DNA of 37,471 nt, from NCBI GenBank assembly GCA_017456845.1, contig JAFTIP010000011.1, positions 1 to 37,471 on the forward strand, in the 5' to 3' direction. The notes under the pieces were generated by a model that worked only from the letters and a program-made list of their open reading frames with translations, did no database searches and was not told the origin of the DNA. Shown here in pieces: positions 2-15,254 of this stretch (position 1 is the stretch's first letter; each line of letters begins with the position of its first letter). Made by a program: the position numbers and the translations under genes. This stretch comes from Ruminococcus sp. Its GTDB lineage: Bacteria; Bacillota; Clostridia; Oscillospirales; Acutalibacteraceae.

Positions 2-724
2 TACTATCCGCTTGAAAATGATATAACATGTGCCCTTGTTAATCCTCTATCTTCATCTGCTGTATCTCAGGGTAACAACTTTCACAAGAGCATATCATTT
101 ATTGATAGTGAAAAAGAGAATGTATCACCTGTAAGCATTACTCTTGAAGAGCAGTTTACAACCATTAAAGACGGCACAGGTTCCGCTGCTACTTATAAAT
201 TCAAGTCCAATAATAACAATACATATCTAACACTTACAAATGGCTCTGTTTCCTTTGCCGCTACAGGCTCTAGGTTCTCACTTGAGTATAAAGATGAGGT
301 AGAGGGTCCTTTGCTTAAATCAGGGGATTATTACCTTGTAATAGATCAAGGCAAATTAAAAGGTGTTAAGGCTGATGTGCTTAACACAGTTACTGCAGTT
401 ACTGTTTATACCGGTACGACTTACGAGTTTAATACCGGACTCACACAGGATAAACAGCTTTATCAGTTTTATAACAGCAAAACCAAACTGCTTGAAACTT
501 TAAGCTCAGCAACTTCACCCAAACTTTTCACTTCAACCAACAGCGACGCTGAAGATACAAGAGTTTGTTCAACACCTGTTACAACGTTGACTAAATCAGC
601 CGGCAGCGATTATTACACATCTCATATTGTAATGCGTGTGTGGGTTGAGGGTACCGATCGAGAGGCAAAAACTCCTCTTGCAGATGGTATTTTCGATATT
701 TCGTTACACTTTACATCACAGTAA
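2..724 (+). CDS. SipW/TasA-type secreted protein, 5' truncated by window edge
   Basis: The frame is open from base 2 to the TAA at 722-724 (240 codons), so the start and signal peptide lie outside the window. A methionine-type start can be placed at 311 (TTG) but has no reason to be used, because coding continues upstream. The C-terminus reads VWVEGTDREAKTPLADG followed by a final beta-strand. This is the same ending as the next gene (IWIEGCDTEARRALVDG), so I read it as a paralogue of that family. The middle holds short repeated beta-rich segments (YLTLTNGSVSFA, YYLVIDQGKLKG) that I do not recognise; a beta-trefoil-like insertion is possible but unproven. Stop and next start are separated by a strong AAGGAGG site, so it is cotranscribed with the genes downstream. 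Secretion is inferred from the family, not seen. Confidence 0.72.
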   Translation, partial: YYPLENDITCALVNPLSSSAVSQGNNFHKSISFIDSEKENVSPVSITLEEQFTTIKDGTGSAATYKFKSNNNNTYLTLTNGSVSFAATGSRFSLEYKDEVEGPLLKSGDYYLVIDQGKLKGVKADVLNTVTAVTVYTGTTYEFNTGLTQDKQLYQFYNSKTKLLETLSSATSPKLFTSTNSDAEDTRVCSTPVTTLTKSAGSDYYTSHIVMRVWVEGTDREAKTPLADGIFDISLHFTSQ

Positions 725-736
725 GGAGGGATTAAG

Positions 737-1726
737 TTGAAAAAGTTAAACATTATTAAAAATAAAAAATTCATAATTATTATCAACTTATTCCTCATCA
801 CTACGCTGATGACTGTTTCTGTTTACGCATGGTTTGCTACTATGGTAAATAACAGAGTTGACGCCTATGAAATTGTTGTAGAATCCGATGACGCACTTGA
901 GCTTTCGTTCACAGGTGCAGATGGTACATGGAGCGGTTCCCTTAATCTTGCTGATCTTATGAAAGAAGGAACAACCACATCTGTTCTTGATTCTATGAAA
1001 TTCGTTGAGGTAACAGGCAACGGCGAAACATTTTACAGCCCCCAGCTAACCCAGAAGAATAACTACGCTATAGTTAATCCCGACGGCGACTGGCCTACCT
1101 CAAATAAAAATCAGGATTATCTTGAATTTACCGTTAAAATGCGTTCTAAAGAGGCTCTTAATGTTTATCTCAGCTCCGACTCAATCGCTTCACCTGCTTC
1201 TCAGGTAGTTACAGGTGCAGATTGCGGTAACCCAAGCTCTTATGCTGCAGGAGATGACGCATTTTCCAAAGACCTGATTGTAGGTGCACTCAGAGTTTCC
1301 TTTGAAAATTCTGCAGATTACAGACAGATATGGATTCCTCGTCCCGAGTATCATCTTAATAACGAAGTGGGTTCAACAGAGTACTCAATGACAACTAACG
1401 CAACAATTAATTCTAACCCTTTCCGTTCAGGTCCCGTAGCAGAGGGTCAGCCTTATCCTTGGAATAACTCTTATGAGCATTATTGCTATGATGAAGATAA
1501 GCAGTTAGTAAGACTTACAACTGCTATTACCTCTTTACCCGATACAGTAACAGTTGTACCAAGCGATAATAGTACTTTACTGGCAACTCTTACAAAGAGC
1601 GGTGACTATTATGTAGGCGAGGCTACTTTTACTATTTGGATTGAAGGTTGTGACACCGAGGCACGTCGAGCACTTGTAGACGGTAAGTTTAATATTTCAC
1701 TTGTATTTGATTCTTTCAGTATTTAA
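737..1726 (+). CDS. SipW/TasA-type secreted protein (core-only form)
   Basis: A 329-residue protein starting at TTG 737, seven bases after AAGGAGG (723-729). Residues 1-11 are basic and 12-29 hydrophobic, followed by Y30-A31-W32-F33, an aromatic-Ala-Trp junction like that of SipW-processed TasA/camelysin precursors. The core ends with IWIEG (300-304) and the DGKFNISLVF strand, matching the preceding gene. The central DYLEFTVKMRSKEALNVYL segment aligns by eye with KYISLDFDL...DVYL in the next gene, so the three are paralogues. There are no extra modules: this is the shortest complete WxEG member and a plausible main fibre subunit. Known family role: TasA and camelysins form extracellular fibres in Bacillus. 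Fibre formation here is inference. Confidence 0.78.
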   Translation: MKKLNIIKNKKFIIIINLFLITTLMTVSVYAWFATMVNNRVDAYEIVVESDDALELSFTGADGTWSGSLNLADLMKEGTTTSVLDSMKFVEVTGNGETFYSPQLTQKNNYAIVNPDGDWPTSNKNQDYLEFTVKMRSKEALNVYLSSDSIASPASQVVTGADCGNPSSYAAGDDAFSKDLIVGALRVSFENSADYRQIWIPRPEYHLNNEVGSTEYSMTTNATINSNPFRSGPVAEGQPYPWNNSYEHYCYDEDKQLVRLTTAITSLPDTVTVVPSDNSTLLATLTKSGDYYVGEATFTIWIEGCDTEARRALVDGKFNISLVFDSFSI

Positions 1727-1755
1727 TTAATTTATAATGGCAAGGAGGTGCTGTT

Positions 1756-3651
1756 ATGAAAATAAGAGAACTTAACATCAAACAAATAGTTACTGCAGTA
1801 ACAGCACTTTTACTTGTATTTGTTATGGGGCTCAGCTTCACATACAGTTGGATAGAAGGCGGTAACAAAGGCTATCTTAATGGCAATACTATTCAAATTA
1901 GTGCAGGTAGCAGCCTTTCTATGATACAGGCAGGCAAGAATACCTCTTCAATTGTTATTCCTACTTGCAATCTGCAGGAAGTATCCAGCGCAGACGGCAA
2001 GAACTTCTTCTTCCCAATGGCAGACAATACCTCTAACAATACTACACAGATGACTTTCCGAGAAGGTATCCCTGCTGACGTAAATACCAAGTATATAAGT
2101 CTTGATTTCGATCTTGTTGCTAACGATAGTGCTGCTGACGTATACCTTGGTTCGGGTACAATTATCCAGTGTAATTTTGATACTGATGGTATGTCAAAAG
2201 AACAAATTGAAACGACTAAAAAGGAAAATAAAAAGCTTTTGGATGCTCTTAGAATGTCGTTTTTTAGCAACGACGGGACTGAGCTTATGGTTTTCAAACC
2301 CACACAGATGCCCGGTATTGATATGGATTATGCTCCGATTACTTCAATTACTGAGGTTGGTGTACCATCTACAACTGAAACTCACACCGATGCATACGGT
2401 GATTATTATTTTAAGGGCGAGGGTAGCAGTACTCCATTATTCGAACTAAAAAAAGGCGAAACAAAAAAAATTACCCTTGCTATCTGGCTTGAAGGTACAG
2501 AATTTTCAGGTAACACAATTGCTGACACAGACTTAAGTATTTATATCGACTTTACCACAACTGTTGATGACCTTATCAAATACAACTTCGTTGATAATTG
2601 TCACAGCCGTGGTGACGCAGAAAAGAACAACTGGGTTCATAACAATATCGAGGATGATGGTGTTGAATATGAAACCATGGTTTATATCTATGACAATACT
2701 GCTTATAGATACTACGCTCTTGAGAAAACCTCTGATACAACTTGGGTAGGATATATCCCTAAATCTGTCAGCAACTTTTATTTCCGCCGATACTCTATAG
2801 ATATAGATGAGTGGTGGAATGAGTGGGAGCCTTCAATGGTAGATATTCCCACACTAAGTAATACATATAATGGGGTAACGATTCCTGAGCGAACCTTTGT
2901 GGCAATTGCTGGTCAGTCAGAGAGTGTAGGTACAAACCTTGATGGTTGTTACGGCTATTGGAAGGATGCAGAGGGTACGTTCCGCATTTATTTTGAGATG
3001 CAGACCCCTTACAGCAACTTGCATTGCTATGCGTGGGATACATCTGATAAGCCTTGTGCATCTACAGGCCAATGGCCCGGTAAGGGGATGACCTTCGTTA
3101 AGAATACCACTAACGGCGTTCTTTATTGTATCGACCTCAAGGAATCTGAAAATATAGCAGGCATACAGTTTAACAATGGCGGTGAAACAAGAGTTTACCT
3201 TGAGAAATTTGACTATGGTGTAAATACATCTGCATATGTTCACTTTAATGACTCTGAAAATGGTGCCAAAAAGGAACCTTTAGGCGCATGGCCCGGTACA
3301 ACCGCTGACTATGATGCAAGCAACACAGTAGGAGCGTATTGGGTTGATTTTACTAATTCAGCCAGCAATCATGGAAATACTTTCTACATCATTGCTAACA
3401 ACAGAAACGGCATTCAGTATCCTGATAGCGGCGGTGCTGAAGGCAAAATTGGTAGAGTTTACAGATTCAATAATAACAGCACAACGCTCGAACGTTTAGC
3501 AGGACCATACGAAATTACAGGTGACGACCTCAATAACAAAATTTTCAATGGTGCTGCTTTCTGGCTCAAGTCAAATAACGAACACGGCTTCTATGTTTAT
3601 ACCGAAAAGGAAAAGAGTCTCATTTACCCCGTAAATGACCCCACACCCTAA
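1756..3651 (+). CDS. SipW/TasA-type secreted protein with tandem starch-binding-like modules
   Basis: A 631-residue protein with ATG after AAGGAGGTG (1742-1750). The signal segment is residues 9-29, ending Y30-S31-W32-I33-E-G-G. The TasA-like core runs to about 268 and contains IWLEG (243-247). Beyond it are three added segments. Residues about 275-365 contain FYFRRYS and are of unknown type. Residues 409-476 form a CBM26-like beta module with QWPGKGM and IQFNNGG. Residues 494-573 form a second one with AWPG at 511-514 and IIANNRNGIQYP. The Trp-Pro-Gly plus 'NN-G-Q' pattern is typical of starch-binding modules in gut Clostridia. There is no catalytic domain, so binding or display rather than hydrolysis is expected. 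Ligand identity is inference. Confidence 0.78.
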   Translation: MKIRELNIKQIVTAVTALLLVFVMGLSFTYSWIEGGNKGYLNGNTIQISAGSSLSMIQAGKNTSSIVIPTCNLQEVSSADGKNFFFPMADNTSNNTTQMTFREGIPADVNTKYISLDFDLVANDSAADVYLGSGTIIQCNFDTDGMSKEQIETTKKENKKLLDALRMSFFSNDGTELMVFKPTQMPGIDMDYAPITSITEVGVPSTTETHTDAYGDYYFKGEGSSTPLFELKKGETKKITLAIWLEGTEFSGNTIADTDLSIYIDFTTTVDDLIKYNFVDNCHSRGDAEKNNWVHNNIEDDGVEYETMVYIYDNTAYRYYALEKTSDTTWVGYIPKSVSNFYFRRYSIDIDEWWNEWEPSMVDIPTLSNTYNGVTIPERTFVAIAGQSESVGTNLDGCYGYWKDAEGTFRIYFEMQTPYSNLHCYAWDTSDKPCASTGQWPGKGMTFVKNTTNGVLYCIDLKESENIAGIQFNNGGETRVYLEKFDYGVNTSAYVHFNDSENGAKKEPLGAWPGTTADYDASNTVGAYWVDFTNSASNHGNTFYIIANNRNGIQYPDSGGAEGKIGRVYRFNNNSTTLERLAGPYEITGDDLNNKIFNGAAFWLKSNNEHGFYVYTEKEKSLIYPVNDPTP

Positions 3652-3685
3652 ATTTTATTAACTTACAGATAAGGAGGTGCCGCTT

Positions 3686-6178
3686 ATGCATTACAGAAAA
3701 TCTAATATTCCAAAATTATTGCTTGTTATTGTGGCACTTCTTACTTTATTTGCGGTTTCAATAGGTGCTACATTCAGCTGGATTGAAGGCGGTGCAACCT
3801 ATACCATTCACTCCGATGAAGAAAATGAACCTATCAAAACCGATACAGTTCCTGATAATGTTGTCTACAGTGGTAAGATTACACTTAACCCTTCAACATC
3901 AAGCGGTATAATTGAGCTTATCAATTATGATGAAAATACAAATATGTACCAGAATCTTTGCTTTTCACCTGTGTCTAGTGTTGATGGAGAGAATTTTCTT
4001 TTTCCAGTAAGCAGCAATGATGGTTCAACAGTATTTTATAGAGAAGCAACTGTTAATGACATCGGTACCAAGTATATCAAATATGATTTTGAAATCGAAA
4101 ATACTACTAAAAAGTGTTATATTGCTTTTGATGATGTGCCTACTATTACTGCAAAAATCGGTAATACAAATATTGATACATCTGCTTTTAGAATTATGAT
4201 AAAATGCGGAGAGGGTGAGGATGATAAGTATATCTTCACAACCGCTGACACAGATAAAACAACAACCGTTGCTACAGGCACAGGCTCATCAGTACAGACT
4301 TTAACAGCGGTTCCATTTACACGTTATCTCAACAATCCTACAACTAAGGCGAATAAGCTTTTTACTTATGATAAGGGAGCAACAGGTAATATTGAGGTTT
4401 CGATATGGCTTGATGACGGTTCTGATACATCTGCACTTCAGGGCTGTGAAATTACCATTGACTTAAATCTTATTGTTGTTGCAGAGGATCTTAGAGCTGA
4501 TTTCTATGCTGTTACTTATAATAAAACAGGTACTGCACTTACAAACGGCTTTACAGGCGGTTCTATTAAGTACGGCTCAACAACATACACCAATCACTTC
4601 TATAAAACAGGCACCAGCTTTACTGCTACTGCAGTCCCTGGCAGTAACTATGAATTTATAGGTTGGTACTCTGACGAGGCGTGTACTAAGCTTATTTCTG
4701 ACAAGGCGGTTCTTCCCACCCAGACTCCTGACGATGATGTTGTTTTCTATGCAAAGTTCCAGGAGAGAAATTCTACAGTAATTTATGTAGAGCCACGTTC
4801 AGGCTTCTCTAAATATTCAGTTTACGCTTATAATGATAATGATTACGGTTCCGATGTTCACTATTACACAGGTGCATGGCCCGGTAGCTCAGCAACACTT
4901 GATGCAAATACAGGTTACTATAAGCTTGAATTTAAGACCACAGACATTGGTAAATTCTATGTAATCATCAGCAATAATGGTGCTGAAGCAGGCAGATATC
5001 CTGCACAGAATGAAGAAGGACTTGAAGGCGATATTGGTGGCACATATCTCTTTACATCACTTAATAAACTTATTGAGTTTGACCCGGCTGATATGATTAC
5101 TATCAATGCTCATGGTAAGGCTCCCGGCGGTTCTGCTTCAGTTGACAGCAAATCTACTGTAATAACACGCTCAGGCAAAACCGTTGCACTTAACGCTACA
5201 CCTGACTCCGGTTACAGGTTTATTGGCTGGTATAAAGATAGTGCATACATAACAACAATCGGCACAAATTACAATGTTGCAAGTCAGAATATTACTTTGA
5301 CAGCAGCTGATGCAGGTAAGACTCTCGACTACTATGCTAAGTTCGAGAAGATTCCTACCCTAACACTTAAGACTTCCGTAACGCCTACTGGCGGCGGTAC
5401 AGCTTATGCTGCAGGTGCAACATCCTCAACTGTTCAGATAGGTTCAGAAGTAAATCTCAAGGCAACTGCTTCAAGTGGCTACAGATTTGTAGGATGGTAC
5501 ATCAATTCCGGCTGTACATCCACAACCGGTATTACTAATCCAACCTCTGCAACAAGTGCAAAATACACCGTAAGCGGTACGGCTGATTCAACAGTTACTC
5601 TGTATGCTAAGTTTATTAAAACTTACACAGTTTCTGCAGAGGCAGGTACAGGCGGTACTGTTACAGTAGATAAATCTACAGTTGATACAGGCGGAAGTGC
5701 TAAGTTTACCGCAACTGCAAATTCTGGTTATGAGTTTGTAGGCTGGTACACAGATTCTACCGGCGGTACTCTGAAGAGTACAAACAATCCATACACACTT
5801 ACAAATATAACTGCTAATACAACCTTGTACGCAAGATTTGAGGCAACTGGCAGAACACTTTATTTCAAACCGTCAGCTGATTGGAAGCAAGCAAATGCTA
5901 AGTTTGGTTGCTATGTATGGGGTGGTGGCTTGAACTCCACATGGTATCCTATGACCGATACTGATGGGGACGGAATTTATTCTGCAGTTATTGAAACTGC
6001 ATATACAAATTGTCTGTTCAGTAGATTTGATCCTAATGTAAGTACATCAGAATACAGTTTCGATACCGACTGGAATCAGTCAGCTGACTTTACAATTCCC
6101 ACTAATGGCAATAATATGGTTACATTAAGTACAACCAACCCGTGGAATAATCCATCAGGTACCTGGTCCAAAAAATAA
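3686..6178 (+). CDS. Large SipW/TasA-type adhesin with InlB-type repeats and CBM-like modules
   Basis: An 830-residue protein. I chose ATG 3686, 9 bases after AAGGAGG (3671-3677); an in-frame GTG at 3677 overlaps that site and is unlikely. The signal segment ends F30-S31-W32-I33-E-G-G. The core runs to about 268 with a relaxed signature, IWLDD (240-244). Modules follow in order: a divergent InlB B-repeat 273-360 (FIGWYSD), a CBM26-like module 364-465 (AWPG 397-400), three further InlB-type repeats at 470-555, 557-645 and 646-720 (each with GYxFxGWY and YAKF/YARF), and a C-terminal beta module 724-830 (LYFKPSADW, FSRFDP, WNQSADF). There is no sortase motif or C-terminal membrane anchor, so retention probably depends on fibre assembly or wall contact. 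Likely an adhesin tip or side subunit (inference). Confidence 0.8.
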   Translation: MHYRKSNIPKLLLVIVALLTLFAVSIGATFSWIEGGATYTIHSDEENEPIKTDTVPDNVVYSGKITLNPSTSSGIIELINYDENTNMYQNLCFSPVSSVDGENFLFPVSSNDGSTVFYREATVNDIGTKYIKYDFEIENTTKKCYIAFDDVPTITAKIGNTNIDTSAFRIMIKCGEGEDDKYIFTTADTDKTTTVATGTGSSVQTLTAVPFTRYLNNPTTKANKLFTYDKGATGNIEVSIWLDDGSDTSALQGCEITIDLNLIVVAEDLRADFYAVTYNKTGTALTNGFTGGSIKYGSTTYTNHFYKTGTSFTATAVPGSNYEFIGWYSDEACTKLISDKAVLPTQTPDDDVVFYAKFQERNSTVIYVEPRSGFSKYSVYAYNDNDYGSDVHYYTGAWPGSSATLDANTGYYKLEFKTTDIGKFYVIISNNGAEAGRYPAQNEEGLEGDIGGTYLFTSLNKLIEFDPADMITINAHGKAPGGSASVDSKSTVITRSGKTVALNATPDSGYRFIGWYKDSAYITTIGTNYNVASQNITLTAADAGKTLDYYAKFEKIPTLTLKTSVTPTGGGTAYAAGATSSTVQIGSEVNLKATASSGYRFVGWYINSGCTSTTGITNPTSATSAKYTVSGTADSTVTLYAKFIKTYTVSAEAGTGGTVTVDKSTVDTGGSAKFTATANSGYEFVGWYTDSTGGTLKSTNNPYTLTNITANTTLYARFEATGRTLYFKPSADWKQANAKFGCYVWGGGLNSTWYPMTDTDGDGIYSAVIETAYTNCLFSRFDPNVSTSEYSFDTDWNQSADFTIPTNGNNMVTLSTTNPWNNPSGTWSKK

Positions 6179-6199
6179 ATTATAAAAGGCGGTGATACC

Positions 6200-6790
6200 A
6201 TGAAAAAAGAATATAAAAGCTTAAAGCTCTTAACGTTTGTGTTAGTTTTTGCTTTAGTTCTTGCTTTGACAGTAGTGTCGGCATTTTCATGGTATGACCG
6301 CACAATGAGAGCTGATGAAGACGGCTATAGGCTTGTCTATTCACAGAATGGTAGAGTGAACAATACATCGGGTGTTACTGTGGTAACATATGCAGGTACT
6401 GTTACTGATGGAGTTGTTGAGTATTCGGATACACCTGTTTCCGGTGCCGTGGACGTTAAAGCAGGGCAGGCTGTATATTTCAAGTCCGTTGTTACTGATA
6501 CTGCAAACTCAAGCGATACAGTGGTTTCTCTTTATCTTAATGGTTTGACATATAACAGTGCTATGGGCGAAAATATTCATATAGGTCTTGTTAGTCCGGA
6601 AAAAACCTTTAAAGAATACAAAGGTGTTGTTTCTGGTAACAACAGAACTGTAAGTACATTTTGTTTAGAAGACAATATAGTAGTTGAAAAACAAAGCACT
6701 ATTGAAGTAGAGTGGTTCATAAAGCCTTCAACTGATTATACTGGTACTTCGGCTATAACTCCGGGTACAATTTATATTGCATATAACTGA
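6200..6790 (+). CDS. Small SipW-type secreted protein
   Basis: A 196-residue protein with start ATG 6200 preceded by AAGGCGGTG. The hydrophobic segment 8-28 ends in F29-S30-W31-Y32-D, the same junction as its neighbours. The mature part is beta-rich and has no WxEG signature; the closest match is EVEWFIKP near the end. It is therefore a divergent member, perhaps an assembly or anchoring subunit comparable in position to TapA of Bacillus (analogy only, no sequence match claimed). Its TGA overlaps the ATG of the first signal peptidase (ATGA at 6787-6790 region), which indicates translational coupling of this substrate to the enzyme. Confidence 0.7.
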   Translation: MKKEYKSLKLLTFVLVFALVLALTVVSAFSWYDRTMRADEDGYRLVYSQNGRVNNTSGVTVVTYAGTVTDGVVEYSDTPVSGAVDVKAGQAVYFKSVVTDTANSSDTVVSLYLNGLTYNSAMGENIHIGLVSPEKTFKEYKGVVSGNNRTVSTFCLEDNIVVEKQSTIEVEWFIKPSTDYTGTSAITPGTIYIAYN

Positions 6791-7356
6791 TGAAATGTAT
6801 AACTGTAAAGCAATTTAAAAGTTTTATCAATAAGCTTATCAGTGTATTTTCTACTATATTATTGATAATTACTTTTTTGCTCCTGATTGTTATGTGTTTT
6901 ACTCGCATACAGGGTAAAACACCTCAGTTATTAGGCTATCAAATATTAAGGGTATCATCCTCAAGTATGGAGCCAATGCTTCACGTAGGAGATGTAATTA
7001 TTTCAAAAAAAACAGATTGCTCTGAAATTTTTCCTGGAGATGTGATTACTTATCATGGTAATTATGGTAGTTACAGCGGAAAACTCATTACACATCAGGT
7101 AGTTGCAGAGCCTTATGAAGTTCAGGGTAAGCTTTATTTTCAGACGATGGGAATTGCCAATGGATATGTTGATCCCGAAATATCAGAAGAACAAATTGTG
7201 GGCAAAATGCTTTTTAAATCTGAATTCTTGCGTATAGTTTATTCTTTCTTTACTACTCCATATGGGCTTATAACAGTTCTCGTAATTCTTGCTTTACTAA
7301 TGGTTAGTGAGTTGTTTGCACTAAAGAATATATCTAATCAGAAAGCCGAATCATAA
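6790..7356 (+). CDS. SipW-like (ER/archaeal-type) signal peptidase I, copy 1
   Basis: A 188-residue membrane protease. One N-terminal membrane segment is at about 17-38 and a second at about 156-175, the SipW arrangement. Visible family motifs are VSSSSMEP with nucleophile Ser59, GDVIISKK, GDVITY, and GKLITHQV with His102 in place of the Lys used by ordinary bacterial SPase I. An Asp (D128 in YVDPEI) stands in the usual last-box position. The Ser-His arrangement places it in the S26B/SipW group, which in Bacillus cleaves TasA and TapA. The start overlaps the stop of the upstream substrate gene, with no separate strong ribosome site. A terminator-like hairpin follows 24 bases after the stop. 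Confidence 0.9.
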   Translation: MKCITVKQFKSFINKLISVFSTILLIITFLLLIVMCFTRIQGKTPQLLGYQILRVSSSSMEPMLHVGDVIISKKTDCSEIFPGDVITYHGNYGSYSGKLITHQVVAEPYEVQGKLYFQTMGIANGYVDPEISEEQIVGKMLFKSEFLRIVYSFFTTPYGLITVLVILALLMVSELFALKNISNQKAES

Positions 7357-7380
7357 TAAGAAATTGAGTTATAAATTTAG

Positions 7381-7412
7381 AAGACAGCAGGCTGGGCTCT
7401 GCTGTCTTTTCT
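7381..7412 (+). terminator. Intrinsic terminator/attenuator between two signal peptidase genes
   Basis: A perfect 10-bp stem: AAGACAGCAG (7381-7390) and CTGCTGTCTT (7399-7408), with an 8-base loop and then TTTC. Only about 28 bases separate it from the next start, leaving no room for a promoter. Downstream expression must therefore rely on read-through or on a promoter inside the upstream gene. Confidence 0.85.
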
Positions 7413-7439
7413 AATAAATTACCGAAGAAGGTAAATAGT

Positions 7440-8075
7440 ATGAAAAAAGCTTTAAAAATTGGTAAAAAATTTTTTGATGTATTATGTTGGGTAGTAATAG
7501 CCGTTCTTGTAATTTCGGTTATTATATCTGTTGCGTCCCGTTTTATGGGCACCAATCCGTCGTTGTTTGGTTACTCTGTGTTTCGTGTTTCAAGCGGTAG
7601 TATGTCGCCTGAGCTTGAGGTTGGTGACGTTATTCTCGGAAAATCTGTTGATGACCCTATGAATATAAAAGTAGGGGATATCGTAACCTACAAAGGAAGC
7701 GGTGAGCTTTCAGGAAAGCTTATAACTCACAAGGTTATAGTTGCACCCGAAGAAGTTGACGGTGAAATAATGCTTCAGACTAAAGGTGTGGCTAACGAAA
7801 TTGCCGACTCACCTATAAACGCTGACCGTGTGGTGTCTGTTGTAATCAGTGAACTAAAGTTTCTTGAGTCTTTTTATAATTTCTTTTTTTCACCTTGGGG
7901 CCTTCTTGTCATTATAGCCCTTATCATAATTGTGTTTATCGATGAGGTTATTGTTATTATTAAAAACTTAACAGGTAATGACGTTAAACGCGAGAAAAAA
8001 GATATCAACGATATTATAGGTCGAATTAAAAATGAAGATGCTACAGATACTGATGCTGAAGTTTCGGATGAATAA
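7440..8075 (+). CDS. SipW-like (ER/archaeal-type) signal peptidase I, copy 2
   Basis: A 211-residue protein with ATG 7440 after GAAGAAGG. Membrane segments are at about 14-34 and 151-175. Motifs: VSSGSMSP with Ser54, GDVILGKS, GDIVTY, GKLITHKV with His97, and LQTKGVAN followed by D123. Copy 1 has the related QTMGIAN; this copy is closer to the family 'TKGDAN' box. The C-terminal tail (about 180-211) is charged and cytoplasmic (EKKDINDII, DATDTDAEVSDE), absent from copy 1. It is clearly paralogous to its neighbours but too different to be a recent duplication. The upstream hairpin suggests expression is set separately from the substrates. Confidence 0.9.
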   Translation: MKKALKIGKKFFDVLCWVVIAVLVISVIISVASRFMGTNPSLFGYSVFRVSSGSMSPELEVGDVILGKSVDDPMNIKVGDIVTYKGSGELSGKLITHKVIVAPEEVDGEIMLQTKGVANEIADSPINADRVVSVVISELKFLESFYNFFFSPWGLLVIIALIIIVFIDEVIVIIKNLTGNDVKREKKDINDIIGRIKNEDATDTDAEVSDE

Positions 8076-8090
8076 CCTATATATTAACGG

Positions 8091-8120
8091 TTGCAAAGCA
8101 TACTTATTCTGTGCTATACT
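8091..8120 (+). promoter_or_regulatory. Probable sigma-A promoter for third signal peptidase
   Basis: TTGCAA at 8091-8096 and TATACT at 8115-8120 with an 18-base spacer, about 53 bases upstream of the ATG. The match to TTGACA/TATAAT is good and the position is intergenic, so the third peptidase is probably an independent unit. Confidence 0.5.
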
Positions 8121-8173
8121 TAACGTAAGCTTGATTCTACAATAGCTTAGATTTTCCTTTAGGAGGAAAGCGG

Positions 8174-8824
8174 ATGTTTCAAAAAATCAAACGAATAGTA
8201 GGCATAGTTCTTGTTGCCGCACTTTTTTTTGCCTTATTTTATATAGCCTACATAAGAATTACTGAAAAGCCTCCGGGATTTTTCGGCTATAGATTAATCC
8301 GAGTTTCTTCAGAATCTATGGAGCCTGCTCTTGACGTTGGCGAGGTTGTAATTGTATCCAAAGCTGAGCCCGAAACCCTTGTAAAGGGAGATGTGATATG
8401 CTACAGAGCAGAAAAAGGTTACTTAAAAGGAAAGCTGATAACACACCAGATTTCCAAAGACCCTTATGTTGAAGACGGTGTATATTATTTTACCACCCGA
8501 AGCATTAAGCCTGAGGCGGTAGATGACCCTGAAATTTCTGAAGATCAGATTATTGGTAAGGTTACCCATAAAATTCCTTATATTGGCACAATATACGACT
8601 TCTTTACTGAGTGGTATGGTATGGTGCTGTTATTGGTACTTATTATTATTGCTTTTTCTGATGACGTCATTAATATCATTAATAAAATCAGAGAGAAAAA
8701 GTACCTTGAAGACGATTCACAGCATTCAAATGTGGAGGATATTGAACAAGGCGAAGTTGCAATGGAGCAACGCCTCAATGAGTTTGACGGCATTATTACT
8801 CAGCTTGATGACCCTGACCTTTAA
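8174..8824 (+). CDS. SipW-like (ER/archaeal-type) signal peptidase I, copy 3
   Basis: A 216-residue protein with ATG 8174 after AGGAGG (8161-8166). One membrane segment is at about 7-27 and another at about 147-168. Motifs: VSSESMEP with Ser48, GDVICY, and GKLITHQI with His91. The box that reads TKGVAN in copy 2 is changed to TTRSIKPEAVDDPE, losing the Ala-Asn but keeping acidic residues D117/D118, so specificity may differ. The acidic C-terminal tail is predicted to be cytoplasmic. It has its own likely promoter upstream and a terminator downstream, so it forms a single-gene unit next to the main cluster. Confidence 0.88.
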   Translation: MFQKIKRIVGIVLVAALFFALFYIAYIRITEKPPGFFGYRLIRVSSESMEPALDVGEVVIVSKAEPETLVKGDVICYRAEKGYLKGKLITHQISKDPYVEDGVYYFTTRSIKPEAVDDPEISEDQIIGKVTHKIPYIGTIYDFFTEWYGMVLLLVLIIIAFSDDVINIINKIREKKYLEDDSQHSNVEDIEQGEVAMEQRLNEFDGIITQLDDPDL

Positions 8825-8949: not shown

Positions 8950-10410
8950 ATGACAGACAATAGATTTGATAATCCATATGTTAATCCCGAGGTATCTTCC
9001 GGCGACAAGCAGGACTTACCGCTTCAGAATGTTTACCAACCGCAGGAAGTTTCTGTTGAGCAGATGCCTGTTGAAGAACCTGCAGAAGAAGGCTTAAATC
9101 AGCCTCCTTATTCCTGCGAATGGTACGGCGGTAATACTTCACCGATAAATCCTGCTCCTAAGCCACCTTACGTTTCGCCACAGACTGAGCAGATTCCTCA
9201 GAAAAAAGAGCGTAAGCAAAAAGGTGTATCGAAAGGTCTGTTCTTTGCCGGTATTGCAGTTTGCCTCTGCCTTTCTTTTGTGGCAGGCTTTGTTGGCACG
9301 GGAGTATATAACTATATCGATTCGCTTAATGCTGAGATTAAAAATGGGCTTACCATTAATAAAATTGATGCCGAAAGCTACGATACGGCATATAAAGACG
9401 GTGGTCTTTCTACAGTAGAAATTGTAAATAAAGCCGCCGACAGCGTTGTAGAGATTACCACCGAAACTGTAACTACAGGCGTGTTTGCTCAGCAGTTTAT
9501 TAAGTCAGGTGCTGGTTCCGGTGTTATTGTAGATGCTGACGGTTCCATTGTTACAAATCATCACGTTATTGACGGTGCTACAAAAATCTCGGTTACACTT
9601 CGCGACGGAACTACCTATGACGCTAAGTTGGTGGGCAGCGATGAGGAACTTGACGTAGCACTTCTTGAAATCACCCCCGATCAAAAGCTTACTGCCGCAA
9701 CCTTTGGTGATTCTGATATACTTATGGTGGGTCAGCGTACCGTTGCTATCGGTAACCCGTTAGGTCAGCTTGGCGGTTCGGTGACTGAGGGTGTTTTAAG
9801 TGCCTTAAACCGAGATGTTGTAATTGACGGTCAGACCATGAGCTTGCTGCAGACCGACACAGCTATAAACCCAGGTAACTCCGGAGGCGGGTTGTTTGAC
9901 CAGAACGGCAACCTTATAGGTATTGTTAACGCAAAATCCTCAGGTTCTGAGGTTGAGGGTCTTGGTTTTGCGATTCCTATTAACGACGTAATCAACGTAA
10001 TAGGCGACTTGGCTGAATTTGGATATGTTCGCGGCAGAGTTGATTTAGGTATGACTTTTATCGACGTTGATTCTCAACAGGTAGCTTGGATGTACGGACT
10101 TGAAAAGACAGGTTGCTATATATACAGCGTAGAAAAAAATACAAACGCTGATGTTGCAGGTTTTGAAAGCGGCGACAGAGTGATTTCTGTTAACGGTAAA
10201 GAAGTTGCAAAGTCAGAAGAGTTGGAAAAAATAATTAATGACTGTGCAGTTGGTGAGGAGGTAACCTTTAAGGTTGAGAACACCTCAGGTAAAACCTATA
10301 CAATCAGCTTTGAGCTTCAGGAATATGTTCCTGAAGTTGATAATGAAAACTTTTTTGAAAAAGAAAATCAGAATAACGATTTTTCTAACTGGTGGTCCTT
10401 CTTTAATTAA
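8950..10410 (+). CDS. HtrA/DegP-like membrane-anchored serine protease with PDZ domain
   Basis: A 486-residue protein with start ATG 8950 after GGAGG. Residues 1-93 are a Pro/Glu/Gln-rich cytoplasmic region ending in a basic patch, and 96-119 are a membrane segment. The trypsin-like domain (about 150-355) carries His205 (TNHHVID), Asp235 (ELDVALLE) and Ser311 (GNSGGG). One C-terminal PDZ domain spans about 362-455 (GFESGDRVISVNGKEV). This is the standard layout of Gram-positive HtrA: extracytoplasmic quality control of misfolded or over-produced secreted proteins. Standing directly after a secretion cluster it could serve that cluster, but HtrA is also a general housekeeping gene, so this is only a suggestion. 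Confidence 0.95.
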   Translation: MTDNRFDNPYVNPEVSSGDKQDLPLQNVYQPQEVSVEQMPVEEPAEEGLNQPPYSCEWYGGNTSPINPAPKPPYVSPQTEQIPQKKERKQKGVSKGLFFAGIAVCLCLSFVAGFVGTGVYNYIDSLNAEIKNGLTINKIDAESYDTAYKDGGLSTVEIVNKAADSVVEITTETVTTGVFAQQFIKSGAGSGVIVDADGSIVTNHHVIDGATKISVTLRDGTTYDAKLVGSDEELDVALLEITPDQKLTAATFGDSDILMVGQRTVAIGNPLGQLGGSVTEGVLSALNRDVVIDGQTMSLLQTDTAINPGNSGGGLFDQNGNLIGIVNAKSSGSEVEGLGFAIPINDVINVIGDLAEFGYVRGRVDLGMTFIDVDSQQVAWMYGLEKTGCYIYSVEKNTNADVAGFESGDRVISVNGKEVAKSEELEKIINDCAVGEEVTFKVENTSGKTYTISFELQEYVPEVDNENFFEKENQNNDFSNWWSFFN

Positions 10411-13863: not shown

Positions 13864-14174
13864 TGTCAGTTTTCGAGAAGATTTATGAGGTTGTCTCTCA
13901 AATACCTAAAGGAAAAGTTGCTACTTATGGTCAGGTGGCGCTCCTTGCAGGTAATCCTCGCTGGTCGCGTGTTGTGGGCTATGCACTTCACGCAAACCCT
14001 GACCCCGAAAGAATTCCCTGCCATAGGGTGGTAGACCGCTTCGGTTCAGTATCTAAAGCTTTTGCCTTCGGCGGCGAAAACCGTCAGATTTACCTTTTAG
14101 AAAGGGAAGGTGTAAAGCTTAATAACGGAGTGGTTGATTTGTCCCGCTATCAATGGGACGGCTTTCAGATTTAA
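13863..14174 (+). CDS. Small MGMT-domain protein (DNA-binding domain of O6-alkylguanine transferase)
   Basis: A 103-residue protein starting at ATG 13863, which overlaps the upstream stop; an upstream in-frame ATG at 13821 lies inside the acetyltransferase and is rejected. It consists only of the C-terminal DNA-binding domain of O6-methylguanine-DNA methyltransferases: YEVVSQIPKGKVATYGQ, then IPCHRVV with the Cys that accepts the alkyl group in true transferases. Alkyltransferase-like proteins of the same size usually have Trp there (PWHR). The N-terminal domain of Ada/Ogt is missing. It could be a minimal transferase or a damage-recognition protein. Its stop overlaps by 4 bases the stop of the converging dockerin gene. 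Confidence 0.85.
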   Translation: MSVFEKIYEVVSQIPKGKVATYGQVALLAGNPRWSRVVGYALHANPDPERIPCHRVVDRFGSVSKAFAFGGENRQIYLLEREGVKLNNGVVDLSRYQWDGFQI

Positions 14175-15139
14175 TACATTTTCGAAAGCATTAATAAATC
14201 TTTTGTGGTAATTAATCCGTCAGAGTCCAAATCAGCCGATATAAGATAACTTCCTTGTAAAAGTTCTTTTCGGCTCAAATGATTAAGTAATGCCTTCAAA
14301 TCTCTCGAGTTAACGTTACCCTCACCAGTAAGATCACCATAAATTACAACTGTAATTACCTCACCTGTTGAAAGGGCAAATGTAGCCCCTGTGCCCAACT
14401 TACCGCTATTAATATTTGAGCCGTCAGCCTTTGTAAAGTTTGTGATTTCATACTTTGCAAAGGCTTTCTTTATTTTGCTTACAGTAACTCCTTCTAAAGC
14501 TACATAAAAGCCGTTGCTGGTTTCAGGAGTAATGTTTTCTGTATTGCATTCTGTGGTGTAAACTGTGGTTTCAGGTGCCAAAAGGGTAGGGGATGTGTTC
14601 TGAATTTCTCCGTTTTTGTATGTAAATATTCCATCATCGGTGTGAATGGTTAAAGTGTCTTTATCAGTGATCAAAAGTTTCGTGATTTGGGATTTCAGAT
14701 TAATTTTATTAATATTGCCGTTTTCATAAACGCACATAAAATTAGAATCTTCACCCCATACAAAGTAAACTCTTTCGCCATCGGATGCATAACAGTTTTC
14801 GTTATAAAACGCATCTTCATTAATTACAAAAGAACTTATGCTGTCTTTCTGAAAATAAAAGCAGTAAACAAAAAGCTGATGATTAAGGAAATCTGAGTAA
14901 TAAATATAAAGTGTATTGTCATACATAGAAAATCCGTGAGCATCCTGAATATAGGTGTTTCCTGAAAGCTTGCCGTTATCAAAAACCCTAAGCTCTTTAT
15001 TATTGTAATTAATATCATAAGTTTTGTGTGTTACGGGGTCTGTCATAGTGATATTAAGCAAGTTATCGGCAAAAGCTGTTGAAAAGCATAGTATCAGAAC
15101 CATAAATACCAACACAAAAGCCGCTGTTTTAGTTCTCAT
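14171..15139 (-). CDS. Secreted dockerin-containing protein
   Basis: A 322-residue protein when started at ATG 15139, which follows GGGGGA; a longer reading to 15229 adds 30 residues with no ribosome site. The signal peptide is residues 1-24 (hydrophobic, then STAFA-DN). Residues about 27-190 are beta-rich, with repeated short 'xxLYIYY / RVYFVWG' strands suggesting a propeller-like fold, not recognised further. Residues 208-267 resemble the beta module that often precedes dockerins (GKLGTGATFAL). Residues 268-322 are a type I dockerin with two Ca-binding repeats: D269...E273...N277...D280, and D303-x-D305-x-D307...D314. Dockerins plug into cohesins of scaffoldins; no cohesin is present in this window. 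Confidence 0.85.
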   Translation of the reverse strand: MRTKTAAFVLVFMVLILCFSTAFADNLLNITMTDPVTHKTYDINYNNKELRVFDNGKLSGNTYIQDAHGFSMYDNTLYIYYSDFLNHQLFVYCFYFQKDSISSFVINEDAFYNENCYASDGERVYFVWGEDSNFMCVYENGNINKINLKSQITKLLITDKDTLTIHTDDGIFTYKNGEIQNTSPTLLAPETTVYTTECNTENITPETSNGFYVALEGVTVSKIKKAFAKYEITNFTKADGSNINSGKLGTGATFALSTGEVITVVIYGDLTGEGNVNSRDLKALLNHLSRKELLQGSYLISADLDSDGLITTKDLLMLSKMY

Positions 15140-15226
15140 AGTAATCCCCCGAAGATATAATACAATAATAGTACAATAAAAAGCGGGGAATAGCTTTCGT
15201 TTGTGCAGTATTTTCACAAAGTAAAA

Positions 15227-15254
15227 CAAAAAAGGCAGACGTTAAACGCCTGCC
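15227..15254 (-). terminator. Intrinsic terminator of yebC
   Basis: Read on the minus strand, GGCAGGCG and CGTCTGCC pair (8 bp, one G-U) around a short loop and are followed by seven T residues (15227-15233 are A on the plus strand). It lies just after the yebC stop and upstream of the dockerin gene, isolating the two. Confidence 0.85.

Follow-up and report, generated by a model that had tools for sequence, protein, structure and literature searches.

SipW-type secreted proteins, S26B signal peptidases and a McrB-like NTPase share a locus in a Ruminococcus sp. and may form a fibre system

What is built by a bacterial locus in which several SipW-type secreted proteins stand beside several signal peptidases? 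The question is raised by a 37,471-nucleotide stretch of DNA from a Ruminococcus sp. (GCA_017456845.1, contig JAFTIP010000011.1, positions 1 to 37,471), hereafter the window, at whose start a first-pass annotation had placed five secreted substrates (s1 to s5) and three dedicated SipW-like signal peptidases (pepA to pepC). The open reading frame (ORF) listing of the window has these eight ORFs in the same places, five substrates and then three peptidases. The substrate s1, however, is N-terminally truncated, and the eight genes are the right half of a locus whose true set is eight core-domain or SipW-type proteins and four S26B peptidases. The upstream half had been overlooked; it holds the fourth peptidase, three core-domain proteins, and the NTPase with an NxD signature and the DUF2357/coiled-coil protein that define the system. 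Reading from sequence, we propose with a probability of roughly two in three that the locus encodes a fibre system and that a McrBC-type machine, put to a new use, is coupled to its assembly. The features of the window are as follows.

s1, 2..724, + strand: C-terminal 240 amino acids of a SipW-type substrate; ORF open at its 5' end at the contig edge.
s2, 737..1726, + strand: SipW-type substrate of 329 amino acids; signal ...VSVYAWFAT; core domain.
s3, 1756..3651, + strand: SipW-type substrate; signal ...TYSWIEGG; core domain (hhalign) and CBM26 (PF16738, E 1.7e-12).
s4, 3686..6178, + strand: SipW-type substrate; signal ...TFSWIEGG; core domain, CBM26-like module and InlB B-repeats.
s5, 6200..6790, + strand: small SipW-type substrate of 196 amino acids; signal ...AFSWYDR; outside the shared core by profile.
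s5/pepA stop/start overlap, 6788..6792, + strand: TGATG, read in the sequence.
pepA, 6790..7356, + strand: S26B signal peptidase of 188 amino acids; TIGR02228 87.1 bits; Ser/His/Asp.
Hairpin between pepA and pepB, 7381..7410, + strand: terminator-like, with a T run, predicted by folding.
pepB, 7440..8075, + strand: S26B signal peptidase of 211 amino acids; TIGR02228 84.9 bits; Ser/His/Asp.
pepC, 8174..8824, + strand: S26B signal peptidase of 216 amino acids; TIGR02228 67.3 bits; Ser/His/Asp.

The s1 ORF (2-724) lacks a start codon: the first base of the window is also the first of its contig (C1) and falls inside the gene. A second contig of the same genome, C58, ends inside a substrate gene and carries the upstream half of the locus; its end (L066:13312-14554, L066 being the C58 stretch) is the N-terminal part of s1. 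Aligned to the intact s1 of a relative (662 amino acids), the C58 end covers residues 1-408 and the window start residues 422-662. In the related genome G330 the whole locus lies on one contig, with all four S26B genes found within 14.3 kb. Since the two parts of s1 are complementary and G330 has the locus in one piece, the window genes form the right half of a larger locus whose left half is on C58. Its order is three core-domain proteins (sA, sB and sC), S26B peptidase 1, the McrB-like NTPase, the DUF2357/coiled-coil protein, five substrates and three S26B peptidases. The upstream genes of G330 (L086) keep the order seen on C58, and its remaining genes (L197: NTPase, s1 to s5, pepA, pepB, pepC, HtrA and a MurC-like gene) that of our genome.

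Identity between the two genomes, with peptidase 1 and the coiled-coil partner left out of the comparison, is 97% for the NTPase, 93% for sB, 89% for sA, 82% for s2, 73% for pepB, 66% for s3 and pepC, 62% for pepA, 49% and 61% for the two parts of s1, 58% for s4, 55% for s5 and 43% for sC. The two sC copies (L066:7545-8330 and L086:8256-9053) conserve their signal region, and rapid change of sC beside an NTPase that is nearly fixed between the same two close species would fit an exposed subunit or an arms-race protein. The order recurring in relatives is sA (~273 amino acids), sB (~277), sC (~260), peptidase 1, a ~511-amino-acid protein, a ~770-amino-acid protein, substrates and peptidase(s). 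The downstream block there runs from s1 (or s2) to s5 and then to the peptidase(s), with details and peptidase number varying; in some relatives an S26B gene stands right after the first downstream substrate or right after the partner gene (L121, L122; L145, L147, L148).

At least 426 relatives of the NTPase exist, of which the best 80 were kept for locus counts; their titles include Ruminococcus, Clostridia, Christensenellaceae, Bacilli and Erysipelotrichaceae metagenome-assembled genomes. By a six-frame count, S26B is encoded in 77 of the 80 loci, the three misses (L090, L101 and L135) beginning at the NTPase, and all 120 S26B matches lie on the strand of the NTPase. Within the stretches examined one S26B gene is present in 37 loci, two in 37 and three in 3. 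The McrC-like partner is present in 79 of the 80; the exception, L128, ends after the NTPase. For peptidase and partner these figures replace a first count made with a longest-ORF caller (peptidase 76/80, partner 76/80, motif-bearing substrate 69/80), from which genes under longer reverse ORFs were hidden; the substrate figure stems from a crude regular expression and is not relied on. The linkage of SipW-type substrates to S26B peptidases claimed in the first-pass annotation is borne out and recurs in many genomes.

Linkage is also seen at the level of genomes. Of 295 genomes of the order, tallied by eye, 31 have a match to the NTPase and 111 have S26B. All 25 genomes whose NTPase has the membrane segment also have S26B (a genome-level co-occurrence), compared with 111/295 overall; six genomes match the NTPase domain only, and two of these have S26B, on other contigs. 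A sample of the phylum contains the full membrane-segment NTPase in 1 of 299 genomes (our own) and the NTPase domain alone in nine others, against S26B in 78 of 299, so that S26B systems with this NTPase are a subset of the whole. Matches to s2 are found in 27 of the 59 genomes searched, our own included.

The three window peptidases exceed the cut-off (51.85 bits) of the NCBIfam model TIGR02228 for archaeal/endoplasmic reticulum-type signal peptidase I. Our genome has four S26B genes over this cut-off, three in the window and one on C58, in the upstream half; as all four fall in the two halves of the locus, the linkage of peptidases and substrates is beyond chance. All four have the catalytic Ser and His, Ser, His and Asp line up in pepA, pepB and pepC, and over all S26B rows Ser is found in 117/124 and His in 116/124. 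Against the Bacillus SipW equivalog NF046067 (cut-off 190 bits), the three window proteins (67-86 bits) and the set of four (67-116 bits) stay well below the cut-off. A separate cleavage-site residue for each peptidase block was looked for and set aside as conjecture, the motif expression being too loose. In distant loci large BspA-type leucine-rich-repeat proteins follow peptidase 2 (L201:10819-15882, E 5.4e-93; L198:17382-19901, E 1.8e-7).

In the NTPase (L066:9388-10926), a protein of 511 amino acids, a P-loop NTPase domain comes after an N-terminal membrane segment. Its only sequence relatives in the PDB at E <=0.1 are three McrB sequences (best E 6.7e-7), and the McrB model of NCBIfam matches weakly (E 4e-4). 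Walker A, Walker B, the NxD signature and the membrane segment are found in all 79 NTPase ORFs tested (one of the 80 loci escaped the ORF caller); the NxD signature reads GTANNDD in 60, as in our copy, and GTINNDD in 19. The partner, of ~770 amino acids, combines a conserved domain at its N-terminus with a long coiled coil, and a membrane-like segment was found in none of 76 relatives. Its kinship with McrC is seen through short homologues from Bacilli-type loci: all seven match DUF2357 (PF09823, the McrC N-terminal domain) at E 2e-10 to 1e-12, and the same seven match a profile of the genus's N-terminal partner domain at E 1.7e-40 to 1e-51. No nuclease family is among the Pfam/NCBIfam matches of the partner and the relatives scanned, a negative that counts for little because the same searches miss DUF2357 in several partners and neighbouring genes lay outside the scan. 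Matches of the partner to PADLOC models (LmuB, JetC and others; E 6e-7 at best) lie within its coiled coil and were discounted as signs of kinship. In three relatives (L069:4736-7282, L081:5787-8402 and L085:2773-5310) the partner has an extra C-terminal stretch that is not coiled-coil-like and is covered by no Pfam match.

A combination of McrBC with a signal peptidase was named CoCoPALM in 2024 (PMC11090510), and the present locus very probably belongs to this type: the NxD McrB-like NTPase with its N-terminal membrane segment, the DUF2357/coiled-coil McrC homologue (for our copy, by way of the short relatives) and the signal peptidase genes in the same locus are shared. For a fourth trait of the type, an FtsB-like transmembrane and coiled-coil segment fused to the NTPase, the observations are the hydrophobic segment of all 79 ORFs and a weak FtsL-type match, given below. 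The same source states that no NxD McrB-like NTPase has so far been characterized. Its text, in the part available, gives no description of the secreted proteins of CoCoPALM; here they are seen to be paralogues that share one core and in part bear CBM26/InlB modules, and the peptidases fall into two blocks. The earlier statement that no system of exactly this composition had been described therefore has to be narrowed: CoCoPALM has a name and the multi-protein sipW-bsaABCRSD locus is known (PMC7395162), and it is the secreted family that is undescribed in the available text. Among the matches listed in literature searches for SipW/TasA or McrB combined with an AAA, coiled-coil or signal-peptidase system, only the CoCoNuT paper and its preprint are relevant by title or start of abstract; for CoCoPALM, by title, only PMC11090510 and its preprint seem to concern the subject. 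From McrBC type IV restriction and the PADLOC model PDC-M26A, with which it shares the NTPase domain (McrB being closest in the PDB) and the DUF2357 partner, the locus differs in having NxD rather than NxxD, a membrane segment, ties to secretion genes and, within the limits of the scans given above, no endonuclease model match in the partners.

The secreted proteins were compared by hhalign of mature-core profiles, in which the signal was cut up to the aromatic motif (sB was used whole), sequences lacking the motif were dropped and at most 45 were taken per class. The profiles kept 11/16 sequences for s1, 35/52 for s2, 34/51 for s3, 9/23 for s4, 8/11 for s5, 36/36 for sA, 45/58 for sB, 45/50 for sC and 34/45 for the TasA/camelysin family; classes were set by best BLAST match, so that members may have leaked between s1 and s2. 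The classes s1, s2, s3, s4, sA, sB and sC match each other at a probability (Prob) of 82.8-100, some sB pairs over just 35-38 columns, whereas control pairs (peptidase, NTPase, coiled-coil partner and column shuffles) stay at Prob <=3.1. With s5 no other class exceeds Prob 13.7. By profile, then, one core domain is common to seven of the eight classes, secreted or anchored, the exception being s5. Searches of the five substrates against Pfam and NCBIfam gave nothing convincing beyond the CBM26 and InlB-type repeat modules, and sC gave nothing telling in Pfam. In solved-structure sequence searches the s2 alignment gave two unusable matches (E 0.047 and 0.87) and the sC alignment none.

In s2 to s5 a basic N-terminus precedes a hydrophobic segment and a motif of aromatic residues (AWF, SWI, SWI and SWY, respectively). 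The W and F of this motif are invariant in 39/39 rows of the s2-type alignment; in that of sC (35 rows) W is invariant and F present in >=90%. The motif ATFAWFT here compares with ATMAWFTD in camelysin-family proteins, and judged by these residues the signals are of the TasA/camelysin kind. In sB, unlike the others, the N-terminus is extended and the transmembrane segment lacks the aromatic motif; the protein may be an anchored form. The modular build of the substrate set, which the first-pass annotation had recognized, is confirmed by the CBM26 of s3 and by the InlB B-repeats of s4 (PF18998, E 7.9e-31); the CBM26 of s4 (PF16738, E 2.5e-5, 24.8 bits) is just below the 28.1-bit cut-off. CBM26 or InlB-type repeats are present in 9/9 s3/s4-type relatives, which were hand-picked for scanning.

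Two described systems resemble the locus. In Bacillus tapA-sipW-tasA, too, an S26B-type peptidase is linked to substrates whose cleavage region has aromatic residues, with an accessory protein in the operon (PMC9674648, as far as its text was available), but it has one peptidase and two substrates instead of four peptidases and eight core or SipW-type proteins, and the NTPase, its DUF2357 partner and the absence of a TasA/camelysin profile match set our locus apart. The sipW-bsaABCRSD locus of Clostridium perfringens has one SipW homologue beside several putative secreted proteins, and its BsaA polymerizes outside the cell in a SipW-dependent manner (PMC7395162, from the available text). It shares with ours the SipW homologue and several putative secreted proteins in one locus, and one of 39 s2-type rows matches the BsaA model TIGR04090 (E 0.0017, with unrelated models at similar values there, 0.0055 for one); the operon as described differs in its single peptidase, its two-component system and its lack of a McrB-like NTPase. 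The locus is neither camelysin-family nor merely a larger tapA-sipW-tasA operon.

How might the parts act together? The substrates would pass through the membrane by Sec and remain anchored through signals that are poor substrates of the general signal peptidase; for a TasA signal, inefficient cleavage by LepB is described (PMC10269814, in the text available). The S26B peptidases would then free them, peptidase 1 perhaps serving the upstream block and pepA to pepC the downstream block. Freed cores would polymerize into a fibre, whose base could be held by sB through its retained membrane segment; s5 is a candidate for a TapA-like helper of assembly, and the CBM26 and InlB modules of s3 and s4 may bind starch or surfaces. 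A cytoplasmic NTPase ring, stimulated by the DUF2357 protein, would gate or drive release or assembly. That the product is a secreted polymer is probable; that the NTPase acts in assembly rather than defence is an even call. In the most specific version, an assembly machine descended from the restriction enzyme McrBC, bound to the membrane and driven by NTP, would build a TasA-like fibre of the SipW class from several kinds of subunit, with proteins that bind starch at its tip; this version is tentative, with the odds against it.

Several observations weigh against this proposal. By family profile the comparison with TasA/camelysin, to which the first-pass annotation had looked, came out negative: the camelysin profile PF12389, also used to collect the TasA/camelysin cores, has no match in our genome and finds the B. 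subtilis control. Single core classes reach Prob 0.9-76.6 against these cores, the top value over 16 columns at the mature N-terminus. The combined cores (all classes but sB and s5) reach 32.2, and 41.7 without their first 25 residues, a weak match in which C-terminal strands are aligned; reversed and unrelated controls stay at <=0.5, and a homology to TasA is no more than suggested. Curated models point weakly in the same direction: the SipW-signal model TIGR04088 matches 6/35 sC rows at best with E 0.011, where unrelated models reach 0.0032, and the BsaA match of s2 is scarcely better set off. The partners of our genome, L201 and L199 have no direct DUF2357 match, their link to McrC running through the short relatives, and the FtsB-like N-terminus of the NTPase is a weak match to an FtsL-type model (residues 58-110, E 0.0041). 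In 13 relatives searched genome-wide, with contigs tallied by eye, 31 of 41 S26B genes over the cut-off lie on the NTPase contig and 10 elsewhere; the ten belong to G331, G332, G340, G341 and G342, where S26B is not exclusive to the locus or the assemblies are split. S26B occurs without the membrane-segment NTPase in 86 of the 111 S26B genomes of the order, and the NTPase is therefore not required for every such system. Finally, PDC-M26A, a candidate-defence model, matches the NTPase at E 6e-37.

The main rival is anti-phage defence, for which this last match speaks. The NTPase and DUF2357 partner would then act in restriction or abortive defence as a McrBC-type system at the membrane, and the surface proteins, once processed by the peptidases, would serve as sensors or decoys. 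The predicted defence role of CoCoNuT relatives (PMC11090510, in the text available) agrees with this reading and the divergence of sC lends itself to it, as phage receptors can show the like. The missing nuclease matches say little against it; a stronger point is that the constant companions of the NTPase are secretion genes, and gene order is similar across Clostridia- and Bacilli-type loci. We consider it unlikely. Improbable, too, is that the S26B enzymes release single starch- or surface-binding proteins, non-polymeric adhesins or wall proteins, with no fibre: the modules of s3, s4 and their relatives and the low Prob of the TasA-type core (32.2-41.7) speak for this, yet seven paralogous core classes, including the small module-less sA, sC and s2, look like subunits rather than adhesins, and the described SipW substrates BsaA and TasA polymerize (PMC7395162 and PMC9674648, in their available text). 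A plain multi-substrate SipW fibre operon, with the NTPase and coiled-coil genes as neighbours on an unrelated task, would suit the many S26B genomes without NTPase in the order and the phylum sample, and sipW-bsaABCRSD as described, but has poor odds given that the membrane-segment NTPase was not seen without S26B (25/25 genomes; 77/80 loci, with the misses at contig edges).

Within the window, s4 could start at GTG 3677 or ATG 3686; ATG 3686 is the more likely start, since the syntenic copy of a relative begins at the matching ATG. GGAGG, resembling a ribosome-binding site, stands 5' of s2, s3 and s4. The one-base overlap of s5 and pepA recurs in L197 (TAATG). The hairpin between pepA and pepB (7370-7420) folds at -19.2 kcal/mol with z -4.95, and its L197 counterpart at the same place has z -2.89; it is absent from the list of the terminator pattern scan of the window. 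Owing to this hairpin pepB and pepC may be transcribed separately, or only partly with the upstream genes. A promoter-like match at 8091-8120 is a candidate for a possible promoter of pepC itself, the count of such matches being near chance (39 in the window for 33.5 expected; in L066, 23 for 22.2). Terminator-like patterns are at chance in the window (6 against 7.8 expected) and number 20 against 8.6 in L066. HtrA (8950-10410) was dropped as a member of the locus; it lies 3' of pepC in L197 also, but other genes are found there in G020 (L067).

Further along, the protein at 14171-15229 (- strand) has a C-terminal type I dockerin (E 3e-9); to judge from this domain, a complex like a cellulosome or amylosome is a further possibility for the organism and would go well with fibres that bind starch. 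Nine proteins in 16170-37442 scanned by Pfam look housekeeping: YicC, PriA, a formyltransferase, RsmB/F, a PASTA kinase, ApbE, a tRNA methyl transferase family member, an asparagine synthase and a Gate-domain protein.

If the most specific version of the proposal is right, Gram-positive-type bacteria would have a powered route of fibre assembly distinct from sortase pili, from type IV pili and from the unpowered donor-strand assembly of TasA (the available text of PMC9674648 describes TasA fibres as assembling by donor-strand exchange and mentions no powered machine). The locus supplies cargo for CoCoPALM, a paralogous, modular, SipW-type secreted family beside two blocks of S26B peptidases, and with it a testable claim on the role of an NxD McrB-like NTPase outside DNA restriction. 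Scanners for defence genes (PDC-M26A) may be labelling a surface-assembly machine as an anti-phage system. For the organism, the CBM26 modules suggest attachment to starch in herbivore-gut relatives of Ruminococcus.

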